From NCBI GenBank assembly GCA_026391715.1, contig JAPLDO010000022.1:1-64000 (forward strand): a DNA stretch of 64,000 bases. Reading direction: 5' to 3'. The position numbers and the translations under genes are program-made. The stretch is from Bacteroidota bacterium (GTDB lineage Bacteria; Bacteroidota; Bacteroidia; Bacteroidales; FEN-979). Shown piece after piece: positions 26,720 through 36,813 of the stretch. How positions within the stretch are numbered: position 1 is the stretch's first letter; every line of letters begins with the position of its first letter. A model generated the notes under the pieces. It saw only the letters and a program-made list of their open reading frames with translations. It made no database searches and was not told the origin of the DNA.

Positions 26720-27931
26720 ATGGAAATAAAAAGTCTGAAATGGCGTGTTTTTGATCTATTCGAAATCCATGGAAGGGTTGATGGGCTAACCTCCCCGGAG
26801 CTTAAACGAACTTTCGACAACGAAGCTACAGCCGGGCGGCGGAAGTTGATAATTGACCTTTCTCACGTTACATACATAAGCAGCGCCGGACTGCGCGTAA
26901 TTCTTCAGACACACAAATCTCTTAAACAAATCGGCGGGGAATTAATACTCGTTTCTGCTCCACACGCAGTAATGGAAGTATTCAGGGTTAGCGGGATGAC
27001 CGGCTTTTTCACTATTCTTCCCGATTTGAAATCGCTCCACGCGCTCGAAAATGATATCGCAGATGTTGCCGAAACCAAAGAAATTACCATCGAAGGCATC
27101 GTGTTCGAAGAGCTAAAAAAATCCAACGTTCCGGGTCTTCTTTTTTCCATCGGAGATAATGATAAGATGAAAACTGCTTCTTATTCCAAATCCGATGTTG
27201 TTACAATAAAACCCGCTGAAATAAAATACGGCGCCGGGTTGGCTGCTTTGGGCGACGATTTTGGGGAATATCAGACGCTGTTTGGCGAATCAATAGTAAT
27301 CGGACGTCATTTTTTTTCCTACCCAGCGGTGTTGAAACCGGTTATTGATTATTCTTACTTCCAGCCGGAATCGGTTCACTCATTGAATTTTCTTAATGGA
27401 TTCGGGTTCTCCGGCGAATTTTCCCGGATTTTACGTTTCGCTCCAGATCAAGCCCCCAAAAGCGTTGAAAATCTTTTAAAAGCCGCCGGAAATATTGCTG
27501 AATCCAATCTTTTCGGAGTGGTTATCCTTGGCGTCAGCGGAGGAATTGAAGGTATGCATCTTAAAAAAGCGCCTGTTGTTGCAAACCGCCTTACACGAGG
27601 AACTATTTTCGACGCCGGCAATTTTTCGCATTGGATGAACTTTTCGCTGGAGCCTGAAGATATTAATAAAACTATTGTGGCTTGCGGTATTTTCCTGAAA
27701 AACACTGAAACTGCGACGGAAAACGAAAAGAAATTTTTCCCTGTATCGGGCAACGCCCACCTTCACGCAATCGCGCTTGAAAATGGCTTATGGAGCAACC
27801 ATATCCTCGAATTTGAAAAGGAACTTCTGCGGGTCGCAAAAGAATTTAACGCCGAAAAGGTATTGCACCTGCTTCCCGCTTCGCGACTTAAAAACGGTTT
27901 CATTGGAATAATAAACCTGGAGGTAGCCTGA
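26720..27931 (+). CDS. STAS-domain protein with long uncharacterised C-terminal region
   Basis: 403 aa; STAS core GRVDGLTSPELKRTFD...LIIDLSHVTYISSAGLRVILQTHKSLKQIGGEL; roughly 270 aa C-terminal extension not recognised. Confidence 0.88.
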   Translation: MEIKSLKWRVFDLFEIHGRVDGLTSPELKRTFDNEATAGRRKLIIDLSHVTYISSAGLRVILQTHKSLKQIGGELILVSAPHAVMEVFRVSGMTGFFTILPDLKSLHALENDIADVAETKEITIEGIVFEELKKSNVPGLLFSIGDNDKMKTASYSKSDVVTIKPAEIKYGAGLAALGDDFGEYQTLFGESIVIGRHFFSYPAVLKPVIDYSYFQPESVHSLNFLNGFGFSGEFSRILRFAPDQAPKSVENLLKAAGNIAESNLFGVVILGVSGGIEGMHLKKAPVVANRLTRGTIFDAGNFSHWMNFSLEPEDINKTIVACGIFLKNTETATENEKKFFPVSGNAHLHAIALENGLWSNHILEFEKELLRVAKEFNAEKVLHLLPASRLKNGFIGIINLEVA

Positions 27932-30780
27932 TGGAACTGTGGATTGGCGCCGTAAACCTTGGGATTTTGTATGCCTTCATGGCAATCGGAACCTTTATAA
28001 CCTATAAACTCTATTCGTTTCCCGATATAACCATTGATGGAACCTTTGCCACCGGCGCGGCTGTTGCATCAATCCTGATTGTGGATGGGTGGAATCCGCT
28101 TCTCGTTCTTCCGGTTGCTTTTCTCGTTGGTTCTCTCGCAGGATTTATTACAGGATTTATCCATACCCGGTTCAAAATTGAAGGATTGCTTGCCGGTATT
28201 CTGGTAATGACCGGACTGTACTCGGTAAACCTGCATATCATGGGAAAGTCGAACATCCCGCTGCTTACCAGCAAAACCTTCGTTTCTATTCTTTCCTCAG
28301 TAAATCCGGGTTTGCCGCCTGAACTGTGGACATGCTTTTTTCTCGTTGCCGCGATGCTTTTCTTCTGGATTCTCGTTTCGCTGTTTCTGAAAACCGACTT
28401 CGGATTAACCATGCGCGCTACCGGCAATAATCCGGTTATGGTGGCGGCGCAGGGAGTTTCGGTGAACAGGATTAAAATTTTCGGCGTCGCCATTGCCAAT
28501 GGTTTTGTTGGAATTTCAGGAGCTTTGATTGCCCAGTACCAGGGATTTGCCGATATCGGAATGGGAATCGGATCAATTATCTTCAGTCTCGCCGCTGTTA
28601 TAATCGGAGAAGCTATTCTGCGTAGCCGTTCCGTGTTTGTCCAGGTTCTTGGGGTGATTATCGGTTCGGTCATTTTCCGGCTCGCCGTGGCATTCGCGCT
28701 CAATGTTGGCATGAATCCTAACGACCTGAAGCTGATTACCGCTGTTTTCGTTCTGTTTACTCTCGTTGCTACCGGGGCTTTTGGAAAAAACTCATCCGGC
28801 TTCATGAAGAAAGTTTACAACTGGCTCCGTATAAAAAACCGGAGGATTTTCCTTTTCCTTGGATTGACTATTCTCATCGCAGGTTATTTCATTGGTAAAC
28901 AAATGATTTTCCCTTCAGAACGAAATCACATGGTGAAGATTGGCGTAGTGTTGGCAAACCAGAGCGACATCCTTACCAAAACCCGCGACGGACTTTACAG
29001 CGAGCTTACCCGACTTGGGTACGTCAATGGAAAAAATTGCGTTATCCTTGAACAGAACGCCGAGGGCGATATCCCTACAAACCTCACCATCATTGACCAT
29101 TTTATACATCAAAAGGTTGATATTTTCATTCCAATTTCCACTGCCTCCACGCAGGCTGCGCTGAATAAAATCAAAAACCGTCCGATTGTTTTTGCAACCG
29201 TTGCAAATCCGTTTATGATTGGCGCGGGAACATCGCCTGTGAACCATCCGCCCAACATCACCGGCGTTTACGGAGCATCGCCGATTAAAGAATTATTAGC
29301 GATTTTCCGTCAGATGTACCGCGGAAAGGTTAAAATTGGCGTTATTTATAATCCCGCCTATCCCAATACGGTTTCAAATCTGAAGGATATGAAGACGGCG
29401 CTTGAAAACGACAAGGATATCCGTCTGGAAGAGGCAACGGTTTCTAATTCCAATGATGTTTACCAGGCCGCTCTCGCCATTGCGAACAGAGACGTTGCCG
29501 CCTTTGTTCTGATCAACGACCTCACTGTTTTCAATTCCTTTGAATCGGTCGTAAGGGTTTCGAAAAACAACGAAATTCCGATTTTCACCTGCGACGCCGA
29601 AAGGCTGAAAGATGGCGCGCTTATAGTTTACGGCTATGAATATTACGGAAGCGGAATGCAGGCTGCTCATCTGGTCAACAGGATTATCCGTGGCGAAAGT
29701 CCGCAAAATATCCCGTTTGAAAAGTATAAGATATTAACTTATGGATTAAACTATGATGTAGCGAGAGAACTTAGTACGCCAATTCCGGCTGCGATACGCC
29801 TCGCTGCTGATTCCTGGGTTAGGGATGGTATTTTGACCAGACCGGCATTTACGCTTCCACCCGATCCAGAGTTGTGGCGCGAAAAAAAGGTGGCGCTGTT
29901 TCAGTTTAGCAGCAGCTCGTTACTTGACATGAGCATGCATGGCTTCAATCAGCAAATCAACAGTTTTGCCGCAGAGCGCTCAATCAAATTTAAGATGGAG
30001 GAGTACAATGCTCATGGCGATTTTTCGACAGGGCAAAGCATTGCGACCGCCATTGTTGAAAAAAACTATGATTATGTTGTCACCTTCTCAACTCTCGCGC
30101 TTCAGATAATGGCAAGCGTCAACAAAAAAATCCCGCACGTTTTCTGTGCCGTTACCGATCCGATTAAAGCCGGTGTTGCCACAACATTAAGCGACCATCA
30201 GCAAAATCTTACAGGGCTTGCTACGCCGCAGCCGGTTGAAGCGACAATAAAATTAATGCGTCAGGTATTTCCTTTTGCAAAAAAAATTGGGATGATCTGG
30301 AATACCAGCGAGGTGAATTCTGAAATTTGTACCATAAAAGCCCGCGCAGCCTGTAAACAGTATGGATTTCAGTTGACAGAGCGGACAATTACCACCCTGG
30401 ACGACCTCGACGACGCCAGAAAATCTATCGTCAGTTCCGGGATAGATATCTTTTTTATCTCCGGCGATGTGATGATATCTCAGGTAATACCGCAACTTGC
30501 AAAACCGATGACCCAGGAAAAGATACCGTTTTTTTCAAATACCGCAGAGGATGTAAACTCCGGAACTTTTATCAGCCTCGGCGCCGATTATTCGCAGGTT
30601 GGGGAAAAAGCTGCCGAAGTTTTTATTGGCGTGGTGAAAGGGACAAATCCAAAAGATATTCCCATCGAATTGTATGTGCCATTTTCACTGGGAATTAATC
30701 TGAATCTCGCAAAAGAATTTGGAGTAGCTATTCCCGATACAATGATCAGCGCCGCAAAAATAGTAGTCCGCCAGCCATGA
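27931..30780 (+). CDS. ABC transporter permease fused to two tandem ABC_sub_bind-type substrate-binding domains
   Basis: 949 aa; residues about 1-300 resemble LivH/TrpY-type permease (PDITIDGTFATGAAVAS, MRATGNNPVMVAAQGVSVNRIKIFGVAIANG); a TM anchor; then two repeated domains with GVVLANQSD...LTRLGYVNGKNC...ATVANPF and VALFQFSSSS...AVTDPIKAGV. Confidence 0.9.
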   Translation: MELWIGAVNLGILYAFMAIGTFITYKLYSFPDITIDGTFATGAAVASILIVDGWNPLLVLPVAFLVGSLAGFITGFIHTRFKIEGLLAGILVMTGLYSVNLHIMGKSNIPLLTSKTFVSILSSVNPGLPPELWTCFFLVAAMLFFWILVSLFLKTDFGLTMRATGNNPVMVAAQGVSVNRIKIFGVAIANGFVGISGALIAQYQGFADIGMGIGSIIFSLAAVIIGEAILRSRSVFVQVLGVIIGSVIFRLAVAFALNVGMNPNDLKLITAVFVLFTLVATGAFGKNSSGFMKKVYNWLRIKNRRIFLFLGLTILIAGYFIGKQMIFPSERNHMVKIGVVLANQSDILTKTRDGLYSELTRLGYVNGKNCVILEQNAEGDIPTNLTIIDHFIHQKVDIFIPISTASTQAALNKIKNRPIVFATVANPFMIGAGTSPVNHPPNITGVYGASPIKELLAIFRQMYRGKVKIGVIYNPAYPNTVSNLKDMKTALENDKDIRLEEATVSNSNDVYQAALAIANRDVAAFVLINDLTVFNSFESVVRVSKNNEIPIFTCDAERLKDGALIVYGYEYYGSGMQAAHLVNRIIRGESPQNIPFEKYKILTYGLNYDVARELSTPIPAAIRLAADSWVRDGILTRPAFTLPPDPELWREKKVALFQFSSSSLLDMSMHGFNQQINSFAAERSIKFKMEEYNAHGDFSTGQSIATAIVEKNYDYVVTFSTLALQIMASVNKKIPHVFCAVTDPIKAGVATTLSDHQQNLTGLATPQPVEATIKLMRQVFPFAKKIGMIWNTSEVNSEICTIKARAACKQYGFQLTERTITTLDDLDDARKSIVSSGIDIFFISGDVMISQVIPQLAKPMTQEKIPFFSNTAEDVNSGTFISLGADYSQVGEKAAEVFIGVVKGTNPKDIPIELYVPFSLGINLNLAKEFGVAIPDTMISAAKIVVRQP

Positions 30781-31589
30781 TAAGTATTTCAAATATAAAC
30801 AAGGTTTTCAATGCGGGTGAACCTGACGAGGTGAGCGCTCTTAAAGAGGTGAATCTGATTATTCACGAGCATGAATTTGTGACAGTTATCGGAACCAACG
30901 GATCGGGAAAATCAACTCTTTTGAATGTCATTGCAGGAAGCGCTGCCACCGACAAGGGTATAATCACAATTGATGGAACCGACGTTACGCGCAAAGCTGA
31001 TTTTCAACGCGCGAAGTACATCTCCCGCGTTTTCCAGAATCCATACTCAGGAACGGCGCCGGGAATGACTATTGCCGAAAACCTGTTGATGGCATTTTTC
31101 CGGGGTGGCGCACGGTATCCGGTGATCAGTCTCAAGGGTCAGTTGAAGGATAAGTTCCGCACTCAGCTTGCCTCATTGGATATGCAACTGGAAGACCGGC
31201 TCGACAACCTCATGGGATCGTTATCGGGCGGGCAGCGGCAGGCAGTGACACTTCTTATGGCTGTTTTGCAAACCCCGAAGGTGTTACTGCTCGATGAACA
31301 TATCGCTGCGCTCGACCCCAAAAGCGCCGCGCAGATTATCAGGCTTACTCAGAAATTCGTCTCCGAAAACAATCTGACAACGCTTATGGTGACCCATTCT
31401 ATGAAAAATGCGCTTGAATCAGGGAATCGCATGATCATGATGCACAAGGGCAGAATTATTGAGGATTTTCAGGAACAGGATAAAAAAAATCTGACCGTTG
31501 AGGATTTATTGAGTAAATTTGAAGATATCAGAAAAGCTGAAAAACTGACTCCCGAATTGATTGATTCCTTAAAAAATCAATATATATGA
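30777..31589 (+). CDS. ABC transporter ATP-binding protein
   Basis: 270 aa; VIGTNGSGKSTLLNVIAG, LMGSLSGGQRQAVTLLMA, LLLDEHIAALDP; overlaps the permease gene by ATGA. Confidence 0.95.
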   Translation: MISISNINKVFNAGEPDEVSALKEVNLIIHEHEFVTVIGTNGSGKSTLLNVIAGSAATDKGIITIDGTDVTRKADFQRAKYISRVFQNPYSGTAPGMTIAENLLMAFFRGGARYPVISLKGQLKDKFRTQLASLDMQLEDRLDNLMGSLSGGQRQAVTLLMAVLQTPKVLLLDEHIAALDPKSAAQIIRLTQKFVSENNLTTLMVTHSMKNALESGNRMIMMHKGRIIEDFQEQDKKNLTVEDLLSKFEDIRKAEKLTPELIDSLKNQYI

Positions 31590-32999: not shown

Positions 33000-33668
33000 A
33001 TGCCTGAAAATTCCGATCTGCAACAAAAGAAATTGGAGGCAGAAATTAAACTTCTCGAAGCGCAATTAAAAGACAAACCGAAGGAGAGCAAGATTGAGAG
33101 CCTGATAAAAAATTGGATCGGGATTGTTCTCACAATCATTTCGGTATGCAGCGCCATTGGCGGGTTAATTGTTCCATCCTGCAATTACATTGCTGAGAAA
33201 AAGAACGAACTTACCTATAATTTAAATACTGAAATGATAGGATTAGTGGATAAGTTGAGCGATACAAATTCCATAAAATGTGAAAATGCCGCGATCTTAC
33301 TGGGATATTATGAAAGAAATGCAACTCCGGTACTGTTAGCTCATCTTGAAAGTCCCAAAGATGAAATGTTATATAAGCGGATAACCTCAGTTTTATGTGC
33401 TATTTATGAAAAAGACCCGAAAGAGACCATAAACCTGATTGATATGGAATTTGAGCGAAATATGTCAATTATGACTCAAAACCCGGATTACTCAAAACAA
33501 GAACAGGATGCAATTCTAAATCTCCTTAAACTCGTCAAAGCTCTTAGATCCTCACCGTCAAATGCGTCAAGAATAATTAATTATATAAAGAATTTTAAAT
33601 ATTTCACTCCGAATATTATAAAAACGTATCCAACAATCTACGAGGAGTTTTTAACTTTAGAGAAGTAA
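33000..33668 (+). CDS. Hypothetical protein: N-terminal coiled coil, one TM, helical C-terminal domain
   Basis: 222 aa; LQQKKLEAEIKLLEAQLKDKPKE, TM IGIVLTIISVCSAIGGLIVPSC. No family recognised. Confidence 0.65.
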   Translation: MPENSDLQQKKLEAEIKLLEAQLKDKPKESKIESLIKNWIGIVLTIISVCSAIGGLIVPSCNYIAEKKNELTYNLNTEMIGLVDKLSDTNSIKCENAAILLGYYERNATPVLLAHLESPKDEMLYKRITSVLCAIYEKDPKETINLIDMEFERNMSIMTQNPDYSKQEQDAILNLLKLVKALRSSPSNASRIINYIKNFKYFTPNIIKTYPTIYEEFLTLEK

Positions 33669-33732
33669 TCAAAACCATTTCCATTTTATGCTTTATGCTT
33701 TTCAGATAAATTCAACAAATTCCAACTGGAAC

Positions 33733-34557
33733 ATGATAAAACGAACGCTTCTTTTTTTCATAATCTATCTCTCAGTAGGGTTTCTTGCTGATAATTTTGC
33801 TCAAAGCAATATTGGGTATGTCGTTTCGGTTATACCACTTTTAGATCCAAATGATAAGATTAGAAACCTAAGCGAAGAACTCCGAGGGTCTTTCCTGGAA
33901 AAAAAAACCGAAAAAAACGTTCCCTTCTTTACTCCAGACCGGATCGTGGACCAAAATTTTAAAAAGGGATTGAATCATTGGCCTAACATAGATTATTTTC
34001 TCTCTTCAACTATTGAGCGCGTTAATGAAAAATATGTAAAACTGCACTTTTATTTTATTAAAAAAGCCCCCTATACGCAATATCCTACCTCGGCATTTAT
34101 TAAATATATTCGGTTATCAGACGGACCATCAAAAGAAGATATTCATGAAATCGTGGATCAGGTTACCTCAGAGATACAATTTATTGTTAAAAATGGCAAA
34201 ACAAAAGGGGTGCTTGAAGTCAGGGATTTTGAAAAAGCACAAAATCAGTCTGAGCAGGAACCGTCAGAGTTTTCAAAATGGCTGACAAATCAATTATGCA
34301 GACATCAAAAATTGAATAAGTCTTTTTCTGTCTATTATTTTAACAAAGATTATATGAATATCAAAGATTGTGATGATATTTTGTATGGAAGGTATCTCAA
34401 TGTCATGAGCAATACTTGTGATGTTGTGATAAAAATCACCTATGATAACACAATCATTGGAGGAATGAAATATACAATCAACAGAGACAATTATGACCAG
34501 GAAAATAACGCTGCAATAATTGAAAAAATAGCTGATAAAATCCTCAACAAAAAATAA
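33733..34557 (+). CDS. Hypothetical exported protein
   Basis: Track start 33688; ATG at 33733 gives signal peptide MIKRTLLFFIIYLSVGFLADNFAQ. No family recognised; possibly a FlgO/TolB-N-like fold. Confidence 0.6.
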   Translation: MIKRTLLFFIIYLSVGFLADNFAQSNIGYVVSVIPLLDPNDKIRNLSEELRGSFLEKKTEKNVPFFTPDRIVDQNFKKGLNHWPNIDYFLSSTIERVNEKYVKLHFYFIKKAPYTQYPTSAFIKYIRLSDGPSKEDIHEIVDQVTSEIQFIVKNGKTKGVLEVRDFEKAQNQSEQEPSEFSKWLTNQLCRHQKLNKSFSVYYFNKDYMNIKDCDDILYGRYLNVMSNTCDVVIKITYDNTIIGGMKYTINRDNYDQENNAAIIEKIADKILNKK

Positions 34558-34560
34558 TGT

Positions 34561-36813
34561 ATGAAACCATCCATGATCCGATTTTTTTTAATTGCCTTTG
34601 CTATTGTTTTTTGTACCTGGCAGGGCGCTGCTTCCGATAAGGCGATCCGGATCGGGATAGAAAAATTTGTTCTGAGAGACTTTCAGAATAAGAGGTTGAC
34701 AGATACGCTTGATTTGCGATCTGTTATAGCCTTGAACCTTCTTAAAAATGACAATATCAGGGTGATATTCTTAAACAACGCCGCTGCCAGGTTAAAAAAA
34801 GATCCCTTAGGGAACAGGGATAGCTGTGATTTTATCCTCTTTGGCAGTTTTTCATTTTATGAGGATGAAATTTATATCAGGGCATCCTTAAACAATGTGG
34901 CATCCGGAATCTATTTTCATTTAGAGCCTGCAAGACTTAAATTGTCTGAAGCATACCGTAAAATGGATATTATTACCAAGCAGGTACTTGAGAAGGTCGG
35001 TTCGGAATTGGATATAATTAATGCGAAAAAATTTGCAATTATTTGCAGAACTGCCAGTAAAATGAAACCGCAGATTTATGATAATATCAGGTACCTGACA
35101 AATTTTGTCACCAGAACACTCCATGTGAAAAAAATTGCTTTAACGCCTGACTCCATCTCGGAAAATTTTTATTTTTCCGACCAACCCGATTCGGTCATTA
35201 TGGATTCCTTAAAGGTAGATGCGCTTTTATCTCTGATGTTTGTTAAATATGACGATAAAGAAAAGATATGCAATGTTGCTTTCCGGTCAGGAATTTCAAA
35301 GAAGATAATCCAATTGCCCACAATTACAATGTATTATAAAAATATCAGTTATAGCTCTGCGCTGAATTACTGGATTGGGGGTTTTATTCTCAATGTGGTG
35401 GATATGGATGGCAGGTTTAATACGGATTTGTTTGATTGTTCAAACAGAACCGTGAGTGATTTAATCGGCGCTGCAAATGCAAATTCACAGGCAGGTAATT
35501 ATTACCTGTCAAATTACAACCTGTTCCTGGCGATGGAACAAAAGCCGGATTCATCAGCGCTGCATAACCTCGCAGGTGATAACTTCCGAAATTCAGGAAA
35601 TCTCCGATTTGCCCTTCAGGAATATTTGAAGGCAAAAGAACTGGACCCGCAGAATTTTAAAGCGATCTATAATCTCGGAATTACATATACCAGGATGAAT
35701 GATTACCCGCGCGCCATCGCCGAACTGGAAAATGTGTTAAAGTATGATTACACCAATACGCATGTGATGCATGATCTTGGAAATGCCTACAATTTGAATG
35801 AAAATTATGAAGATGCGATTCTTAGCTACAAAAATGCCCTGGCACACGAACCGGGCAATGATAGTATTTTATCGTCTTTAGGTTCGGCATATTTGAATAT
35901 GGCAAAGATTGATTCTGTTCATTCAATGGAAAACCTTAATGAGGCTATGAGCGCCTTCAATGCCGCATTGCAGATACAACCCGGTAATTCAGAGTACCGC
36001 AAAAACATATCCAGAGTTTATATTGAGATGGGGTGGTATTATTATGCAACCGGCAGCTTCAAGGATGCGATAATTAGTTTTAAAAATTCAACTTTCGAGA
36101 CTAATTCAGAATACATTTATGATAACATCAGACTATGTTATATTTATAATGGACAGTTGGATAGCGCCTCCAACTATCTGTCGTTGCTAATTGCAAATGA
36201 TTCATTGCTAACATCCTACATTTATTATCAGCATGCGCAGGATATTAGGTATGCCTACCTCAACAGCGCCGACACAAACATAAGATCGTCTGTTATATAT
36301 GGCAATGCGGTTATATACTTTGCGAAAAAACATACGGCAATCATTCCATTGGATGAATACGGCTACTGGTTAATCGGCAATACTTATTCTTTCCTTGAAA
36401 AGGTTGACAGTTCATTGTTGTACCTTGATTCAGCCTACCGATTGAATGACAAAAATATAACGGTACTTCTTGATTTATGCGAGTCGCTTGTGCTGAACAA
36501 TAAGTTTGAATCCGGAATATCCCTGATCAACGAAGTAAGAAAATCAGAAGAGGTCTGGAACAGTTTTCAACCCGATAAACAGGCAATACTTCTGTTTTTG
36601 CTTGCAAGTGCAATTACGGCTTTAGATGGGAAGATGCCCGAATCAACGCTTAATGCTGTTAAAAATATCTTTACCAAAGACAAAAAGACAAAAATAAAAA
36701 ATTGGGATTACGGCGTTTATAAAAACTGGTTGTCAGACGTCCGGGTTATACCTGGTCATGACCAACTTGAGAACCTTCTCAAATTCATGGAGAGTAAAAC
36801 AGATCTGAAATAG
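34561..36813 (+). CDS. Exported TPR-repeat protein with FlgO/TolB-N-like N-terminal region
   Basis: 750 aa; signal peptide; several TPR units (NFKAIYNLGITYTRMNDYPRAIAELENVLKYD, THVMHDLGNAYNLNENYEDAILSYKNALAHEP). Confidence 0.8.
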   Translation: MKPSMIRFFLIAFAIVFCTWQGAASDKAIRIGIEKFVLRDFQNKRLTDTLDLRSVIALNLLKNDNIRVIFLNNAAARLKKDPLGNRDSCDFILFGSFSFYEDEIYIRASLNNVASGIYFHLEPARLKLSEAYRKMDIITKQVLEKVGSELDIINAKKFAIICRTASKMKPQIYDNIRYLTNFVTRTLHVKKIALTPDSISENFYFSDQPDSVIMDSLKVDALLSLMFVKYDDKEKICNVAFRSGISKKIIQLPTITMYYKNISYSSALNYWIGGFILNVVDMDGRFNTDLFDCSNRTVSDLIGAANANSQAGNYYLSNYNLFLAMEQKPDSSALHNLAGDNFRNSGNLRFALQEYLKAKELDPQNFKAIYNLGITYTRMNDYPRAIAELENVLKYDYTNTHVMHDLGNAYNLNENYEDAILSYKNALAHEPGNDSILSSLGSAYLNMAKIDSVHSMENLNEAMSAFNAALQIQPGNSEYRKNISRVYIEMGWYYYATGSFKDAIISFKNSTFETNSEYIYDNIRLCYIYNGQLDSASNYLSLLIANDSLLTSYIYYQHAQDIRYAYLNSADTNIRSSVIYGNAVIYFAKKHTAIIPLDEYGYWLIGNTYSFLEKVDSSLLYLDSAYRLNDKNITVLLDLCESLVLNNKFESGISLINEVRKSEEVWNSFQPDKQAILLFLLASAITALDGKMPESTLNAVKNIFTKDKKTKIKNWDYGVYKNWLSDVRVIPGHDQLENLLKFMESKTDLK

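Follow-up and report, generated by a model that had tools for sequence, protein, structure and literature searches.

The operon described here lies on the forward strand of the window, the whole 64,000-nucleotide stretch of DNA that was analyzed. It encodes a receiver-SpoIIE phosphatase, a protein that we call STASx, a permease fused through an additional transmembrane helix to two ABC_sub_bind domains (SBDa and SBDb), an ABC ATPase, and a separate binding lipoprotein (Table 1). From STASx onward, adjacent genes share 1 to 4 bases (the STASx stop and fusion start at 27931, fusion and ATPase at 30777-30780, ATPase and lipoprotein at 31586-31589), as in a tightly packed operon. The lipoprotein, which has the lipobox-like N-terminus LIASC, had been read in a preliminary description of the region as a third binding protein of a different family, and its ANF_receptor and Peripla_BP_6 matches bear this out. 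It is not a constant component, as only part of the related loci have one. Further 3' on the same strand, positions 33000-36813 of the window encode proteins of 222 and 289 amino acids without a Pfam match and a 750-amino-acid TPR protein.

Table 1. Genes and protein features of the operon, with positions in the window
Feature	Position	Strand	Evidence
Receiver + SpoIIE/PP2C phosphatase, 396 aa	25512..26702	+	Pfam Response_reg E 9.7e-22, SpoIIE E 2.8e-52
STASx, 403 aa: STAS ~residues 1-104, C-domain ~115-403	26720..27931	+	Pfam STAS E 1.1e-18
Fused permease-TM helix-SBDa-SBDb, 949 aa	27931..30780	+	Open frame, Pfam; full-length in L057-L061, L186, L187, L100, L102, L103
BPD_transp_2 (LivH/TrpY-type) permease part	27931..28800	+	Pfam residues 8-276, E 2.9e-29
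Extra TM helix, residues 306-324, after Lys/Arg-rich stretch	28846..28902	+	Hydropathy; model helix 304-325
SBDa, first ABC_sub_bind	28936..29814	+	PF04392 E 3.8e-51
SBDb, second ABC_sub_bind	29887..30762	+	PF04392 E 6.1e-48
ABC ATPase, 270 aa, C-terminal tail common to STASx-linked ATPases	30777..31589	+	ABC_tran E 4.2e-29; tail comparison
Separate LivK-like binding lipoprotein, 416 aa	31586..32836	+	ANF_receptor E 2.8e-25, Peripla_BP_6 E 2e-23; lipobox-like start

The frame of the fusion is open across all 949 codons. Pfam searches identified BPD_transp_2 (PF02653) in residues 8-276 with 102.5 bits (gathering score, 26.8) and ABC_sub_bind (PF04392) in two stretches with 326.9 bits for the whole protein (gathering score, 25.9); in a whole-genome search, the two domain matches scored 174.9 and 164.3 bits. 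With a tandem form taken to mean at least two binding domains in one chain with a permease, the fusion is such a form. These results agree with the preliminary description, which had read one continuous polypeptide with a LivH/TrpY-like permease, a transmembrane anchor, and two binding domains at the positions found here: "TrpY-like" suits the permease part, and the anchor corresponds to a hydrophobic helix at residues 306-324. According to hydropathy analysis, this helix is preceded by the Lys/Arg-rich stretch KKVYNWLRIKNRR, and the positive-inside rule accordingly predicts that the chain passes into the periplasm here. SBDa and SBDb share 27% identity over 258 residues. An AlphaFold model of the fusion, modest in overall confidence (mean pLDDT 78.9, pTM 0.44), contains a helix at residues 304-325 and folds of the binding-protein type; among solved structures, these folds match 6hni, 3lkv, and 3lft best (target TM 0.90-0.92). 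A frameshift or assembly join inside the frame was also considered and is excluded, as the full-length architecture recurs in other genomes, in other families, and in Desulfobacterota.

Within the family, the full-length two-domain protein is present in five other genomes at 56-73% identity, and six genomes carry a version of ~650-670 amino acids comprising the permease and one binding domain; at L062 the version is 648 amino acids long, and at L069 the gene is split. Two-domain forms of 945 amino acids (L186 and L187) were also found in two additional families of the phylum, and one further family has a three-domain form of 1247 amino acids. Three Desulfobacterota loci (L100, L102, and L103) encode the full-length architecture. 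Relatives in named genomes were located by scanning contigs with a permease alignment, a single-sequence scan having given no match. By this approach, two-domain forms of 938-979 amino acids were found in Deltaproteobacteria, Syntrophaceae, and Desulfobacteraceae, and three-domain forms of 1246-1271 amino acids in Omnitrophota, KSB1, and Candidatus Magnetocorallium. No account of the fused architecture was found in the literature searched, which consisted of open-licence papers only.

A tree built from 80 permeases separates the 24 fused ones from the rest at a branch with an SH-aLRT of 99. When the binding domains were placed in a tree, the first, middle, and last domains of one-, two-, and three-domain proteins each grouped by position, with the split L069 as the sole exception; single-domain versions retain the first domain. 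Judged by their sequences, SBDa and SBDb are anciently distinct. On the permease tree, loss of the last domain seems to have occurred repeatedly. The grouping by position would be accounted for by an ancestor with three domains, some of which were lost later, and the reverse direction is also possible. Other arrangements of these domains were observed as well. Elsewhere in the order, two or three ABC_sub_bind domains stand in tandem on a protein separate from the permease, and loci L083, L084, and L085 encode unfused proteins of 922-967 amino acids with three such domains, followed by STASx, permease, and ATPase. In a distant and separate lineage (L087-L089), a single ABC_sub_bind domain precedes the permease in fused proteins of 595-633 amino acids, at loci without STASx. 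The window's genome also contains weaker ABC_sub_bind matches in frames of 1817 and 1017 amino acids (L003 and L004; G000:C162 and C197), which are perhaps sensor proteins.

The STAS domain of STASx matches PF01740 with 67.4 bits (cut-off, 22.6). The model of the protein has a pLDDT of 91.3, and Foldseek places its N-terminus with RsbV/SpoIIAA. The C-domain comprises ~290 residues, and Pfam searches of 32 members gave no match to it. Its Foldseek matches are acetolactate decarboxylase (5yho, E 8.0e-8) and PTD012 (1xcr, E 9.6e-8), both with loose superposition (rmsd 5-11). Identification as a true acetolactate decarboxylase (PF03306) is unsupported by profile comparison: hhalign against the acetolactate decarboxylases of Bacteroidia gave a probability of <1% and no family-level similarity. 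Residues E190, D210, H347, H349, and H383 (HxH...H) are invariant in 61 of 61 STASx proteins, which suggests a conserved metal or catalytic site. In the STAS domain, S55 is conserved in all 59 STASx proteins having that part, and it matches the SpoIIAA phosphosite S58 in an alignment made by hand. A combination of STAS with an acetolactate decarboxylase was not found in the open-licence papers searched.

Pairing of STASx with the permease was assessed by searches that used the C-domain alone. STASx was detected in 19 of 295 genomes of the order, in every case just upstream of an independently located permease, and in further genomes of the phylum it lies beside the permease in 3/3. All but one of the 20 strong permease matches in the order (E <1e-60) occur with STASx; the exception, G427, has a permease and binding protein (L071) without STASx on a short contig of 3979 bases. 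An apparent 723-amino-acid STASx-permease fusion at L135 was discarded as an artefact, as a run of N at the joint hides the gene boundary. The preliminary description, correct in architecture and tethering, had missed both the gene at 26720 as a constant partner and the phosphatase/STAS module.

The ATPases of STASx loci share a C-terminal tail with a different sequence and an additional five to six residues (56/56, versus 1/43 of those without STASx); the lone exception, at L159, is cut by the contig end. Because STASx-linked permeases form one side of a branch in a tree, the statistics on the tail and on gene pairing do not count independent events. On this phylogenetic evidence, the STASx pairing, the tail, and linked traits may represent one evolutionary event.

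In the window, as in all 13 fusion-bearing loci of the family, STASx is immediately preceded by the gene for the receiver-SpoIIE phosphatase. In ten of those relatives, this phosphatase gene is itself preceded by a further gene belonging to one sequence cluster, and Pfam scans of two members of the cluster identified both as histidine kinases. Among the fetched loci, a phosphatase is nearby in 17 of 24 with the fusion, 9 of 35 with unfused STASx, and 0 of 49 without STASx, and an RsbW-type kinase is present in 0, 11, and 0 of the same three sets; Fisher tests on the phosphatase counts, like those on the tail counts above and the pocket counts below, ignore relatedness and are of descriptive use only. 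In other families, the cluster often includes a HATPase_c_2 kinase of the RsbW type together with a small STAS protein encoded separately. The window operon contains no RsbW-type kinase, and we saw neither a sigma factor nor another output gene in it. A phosphatase-kinase-STAS set is present in the window's genome, unlinked to the operon: at L198:489-3375 (G000:C156), a protein with a HAMP-like membrane part, a SpoIIE phosphatase, and a HATPase_c_2 kinase is followed by a small STAS protein. The L198 protein is a candidate kinase source for STASx.

At L098:12569-15467, L080, and L081, an NMT1/THI5-like binding protein is encoded beside a Cache-HAMP-SpoIIE phosphatase (identified by Pfam in L098 and by sequence similarity in L080 and L081), an arrangement that suggests a second periplasmic sensing input. 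No description of a STAS/SpoIIE/ABC operon was found in the open-licence papers searched.

We propose that the operon encodes an ABC importer with a LivH/TrpY permease that is gated by a phosphorylated STAS protein. The permease and ATPase would probably each be homodimeric, because the operon has one gene of each, and such a dimer would carry four tethered binding domains per transporter, two of each kind. Placed in the periplasm by the added transmembrane helix, SBDa and SBDb would capture ligands and, as in GlnPQ, would compete with each other for docking to the one channel. STASx would be a cytoplasmic accessory subunit contacting the ATPase, like MlaB on MlaF, and contact between the ATPase tail and STASx, as in MlaF-MlaB, is a reasonable guess. 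The receiver-SpoIIE phosphatase would dephosphorylate the conserved STASx serine, and this phosphorylation switch would set transport activity. In the window, the phosphatase and STASx have no linked effector other than the transporter, which we count in favor of this explanation; as a whole, we regard it as somewhat probable.

Signal flow in the opposite direction, from the transporter to the partner switch, was also considered. The transporter would then be a sensor: ligand capture and transport would alter the state of STASx, and STASx would in turn influence gene expression and the phosphatase/kinase network. The small separate STAS protein and RsbW-type kinase in the clusters of other families would be expected if the output extended past the transporter, and the ABC_sub_bind domains in other long frames of the window's genome may likewise belong to sensor proteins. 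However, the window operon is without a visible sigma factor or other output gene, and its phosphatase has a receiver domain of its own as input; we consider a sensor role unlikely. It seems improbable, too, that STASx is non-regulatory, with the C-domain an enzyme processing the imported compound and the STAS domain merely anchoring it to the transporter. The acetolactate-decarboxylase/PTD012-like fold and the five invariant residues speak for such an enzyme, but the conserved STAS serine and the linked phosphatases and kinases would be left unexplained, and profile-level similarity to true acetolactate decarboxylases is missing.

For the gated importer, the nature of the ligands was approached through the binding pockets. 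Residues holding the amino acid in TrpX and CD0873 have been named (PMC9382623; PMC6816091), and positions T108, A127, T129, D152, and N233 of Streptococcus suis TrpX (PMC9382623) were used for comparison. In the alignment, these correspond to T, T, A, G, and L in SBDa and to T, A, T, T, and V in SBDb, so that the TrpX-type Asp (D152) and Asn (N233) are kept by neither domain. Both residues are kept in 42 of 48 domains of transporters without STASx versus 0 of 45 domains of the fused group. Each fused domain mostly retains its own pocket signature across genomes, and the signatures of SBDa and SBDb differ. From the loss of Asp and Asn and the separate signatures, we infer that an amino acid held as in TrpX is probably not the ligand of either domain and that SBDa and SBDb probably differ in what they bind. 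The preliminary description had proposed two affinities or two ligands; separate clades across phyla and different conserved pocket residues now lend that proposal indirect support, from sequence alone, and make different ligands for SBDa and SBDb plausible. In the proposed importer, SBDa and SBDb would most likely each recognize a different small molecule, and neither molecule would be held in the way that TrpX and CD0873 hold their amino acids.

One of the two domains might instead be non-binding and act as a spacer or docking aid. Single-domain versions exist that keep the first domain, and the apparent repeated loss of the last would be consistent with such a role. We think it quite unlikely, as each domain's pocket signature is kept across genomes, SBDa and SBDb are both strong PF04392 matches, and several phyla retain forms with three domains. 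A conventional TrpXYZ-type importer of aromatic amino acids, with its binding protein duplicated and fused to the permease, would account for the TrpX equivalog NF041285 being the best NCBIfam match of the fusion and for the closest solved structures (3lft, 3lkv, and 6hni) holding Trp, Phe, and Tyr, but it is very unlikely, and aromatic amino acids are rejected as ligands, as the match of 334.3 bits lies under the NCBIfam cut-off of 390, D152 and N233 are kept by neither SBDa nor SBDb, and no domain of the fused group has both residues.

The importer proposed here shares features with several known systems. In GlnPQ of Lactococcus lactis, the permease chain carries two different binding domains one after the other, so that each transporter has four sites (PMC8025302). 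This arrangement is the closest known way of working to that of the window fusion. The binding domains of GlnPQ precede the membrane domain, and its permease is of another family, whereas here they follow a BPD_transp_2 permease via an extra transmembrane helix, a STAS partner gene is present, and relatives have up to three domains per chain. GlnPQ is a known case of a permease with tandem binding domains; for the permease type seen here, we found no description of such domains, nor of a chain joining three to it. TrpXYZ and CD0873 have binding domains of the same family (PF04392) and fold, and Firmicutes loci pair such proteins with the same kind of permease and ATPase; they differ from the present system, in which the domains are fused to the permease, Asp and Asn are lost, STASx is the partner, and the ATPase tail is another one.

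MlaFB consists of a STAS protein, with a conserved Ser/Thr, on an ABC ATPase with a C-terminal extension; this extension of MlaF touches MlaB, its deletion left MlaB binding intact, and whether MlaB is phosphorylated is, according to the authors of the structure, still to be determined (PMC7367683). Our system has a comparable STAS protein and C-terminally extended ABC ATPase, a likeness drawn from gene pairing and the tail. Mla differs in acting on phospholipids and in having an unrelated permease, and STASx adds the acetolactate-decarboxylase-fold domain; in addition, phosphatase genes are linked here, as are kinase genes in relatives. With RsbU/RsbV/RsbW and SpoIIE/SpoIIAA/SpoIIAB, the operon has in common a SpoIIE-type phosphatase and the position of the STAS phosphoserine and, in relatives, a HATPase_c_2 kinase. 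It departs from these partner-switching systems in that the effector in the window is an ABC transporter, no sigma factor was seen in the operon, and STASx has an extra domain.

More tentatively, and possible rather than probable in our view, these loci may represent a widespread, undescribed class of importers with two to three binding domains in the permease, whose activity would be set by a reversibly phosphorylated STAS subunit bearing a metal-binding or catalytic domain of acetolactate-decarboxylase fold. The pairing of a STAS protein with an ABC transporter, with a candidate phosphatase in the operon and a candidate kinase in relatives, makes the question of MlaB-type phosphorylation directly testable, and the fusion and STASx could serve to test whether phosphorylation switches an ABC importer on or off. 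The one-, two-, and three-domain variants, in turn, form a natural series for what tethering does.
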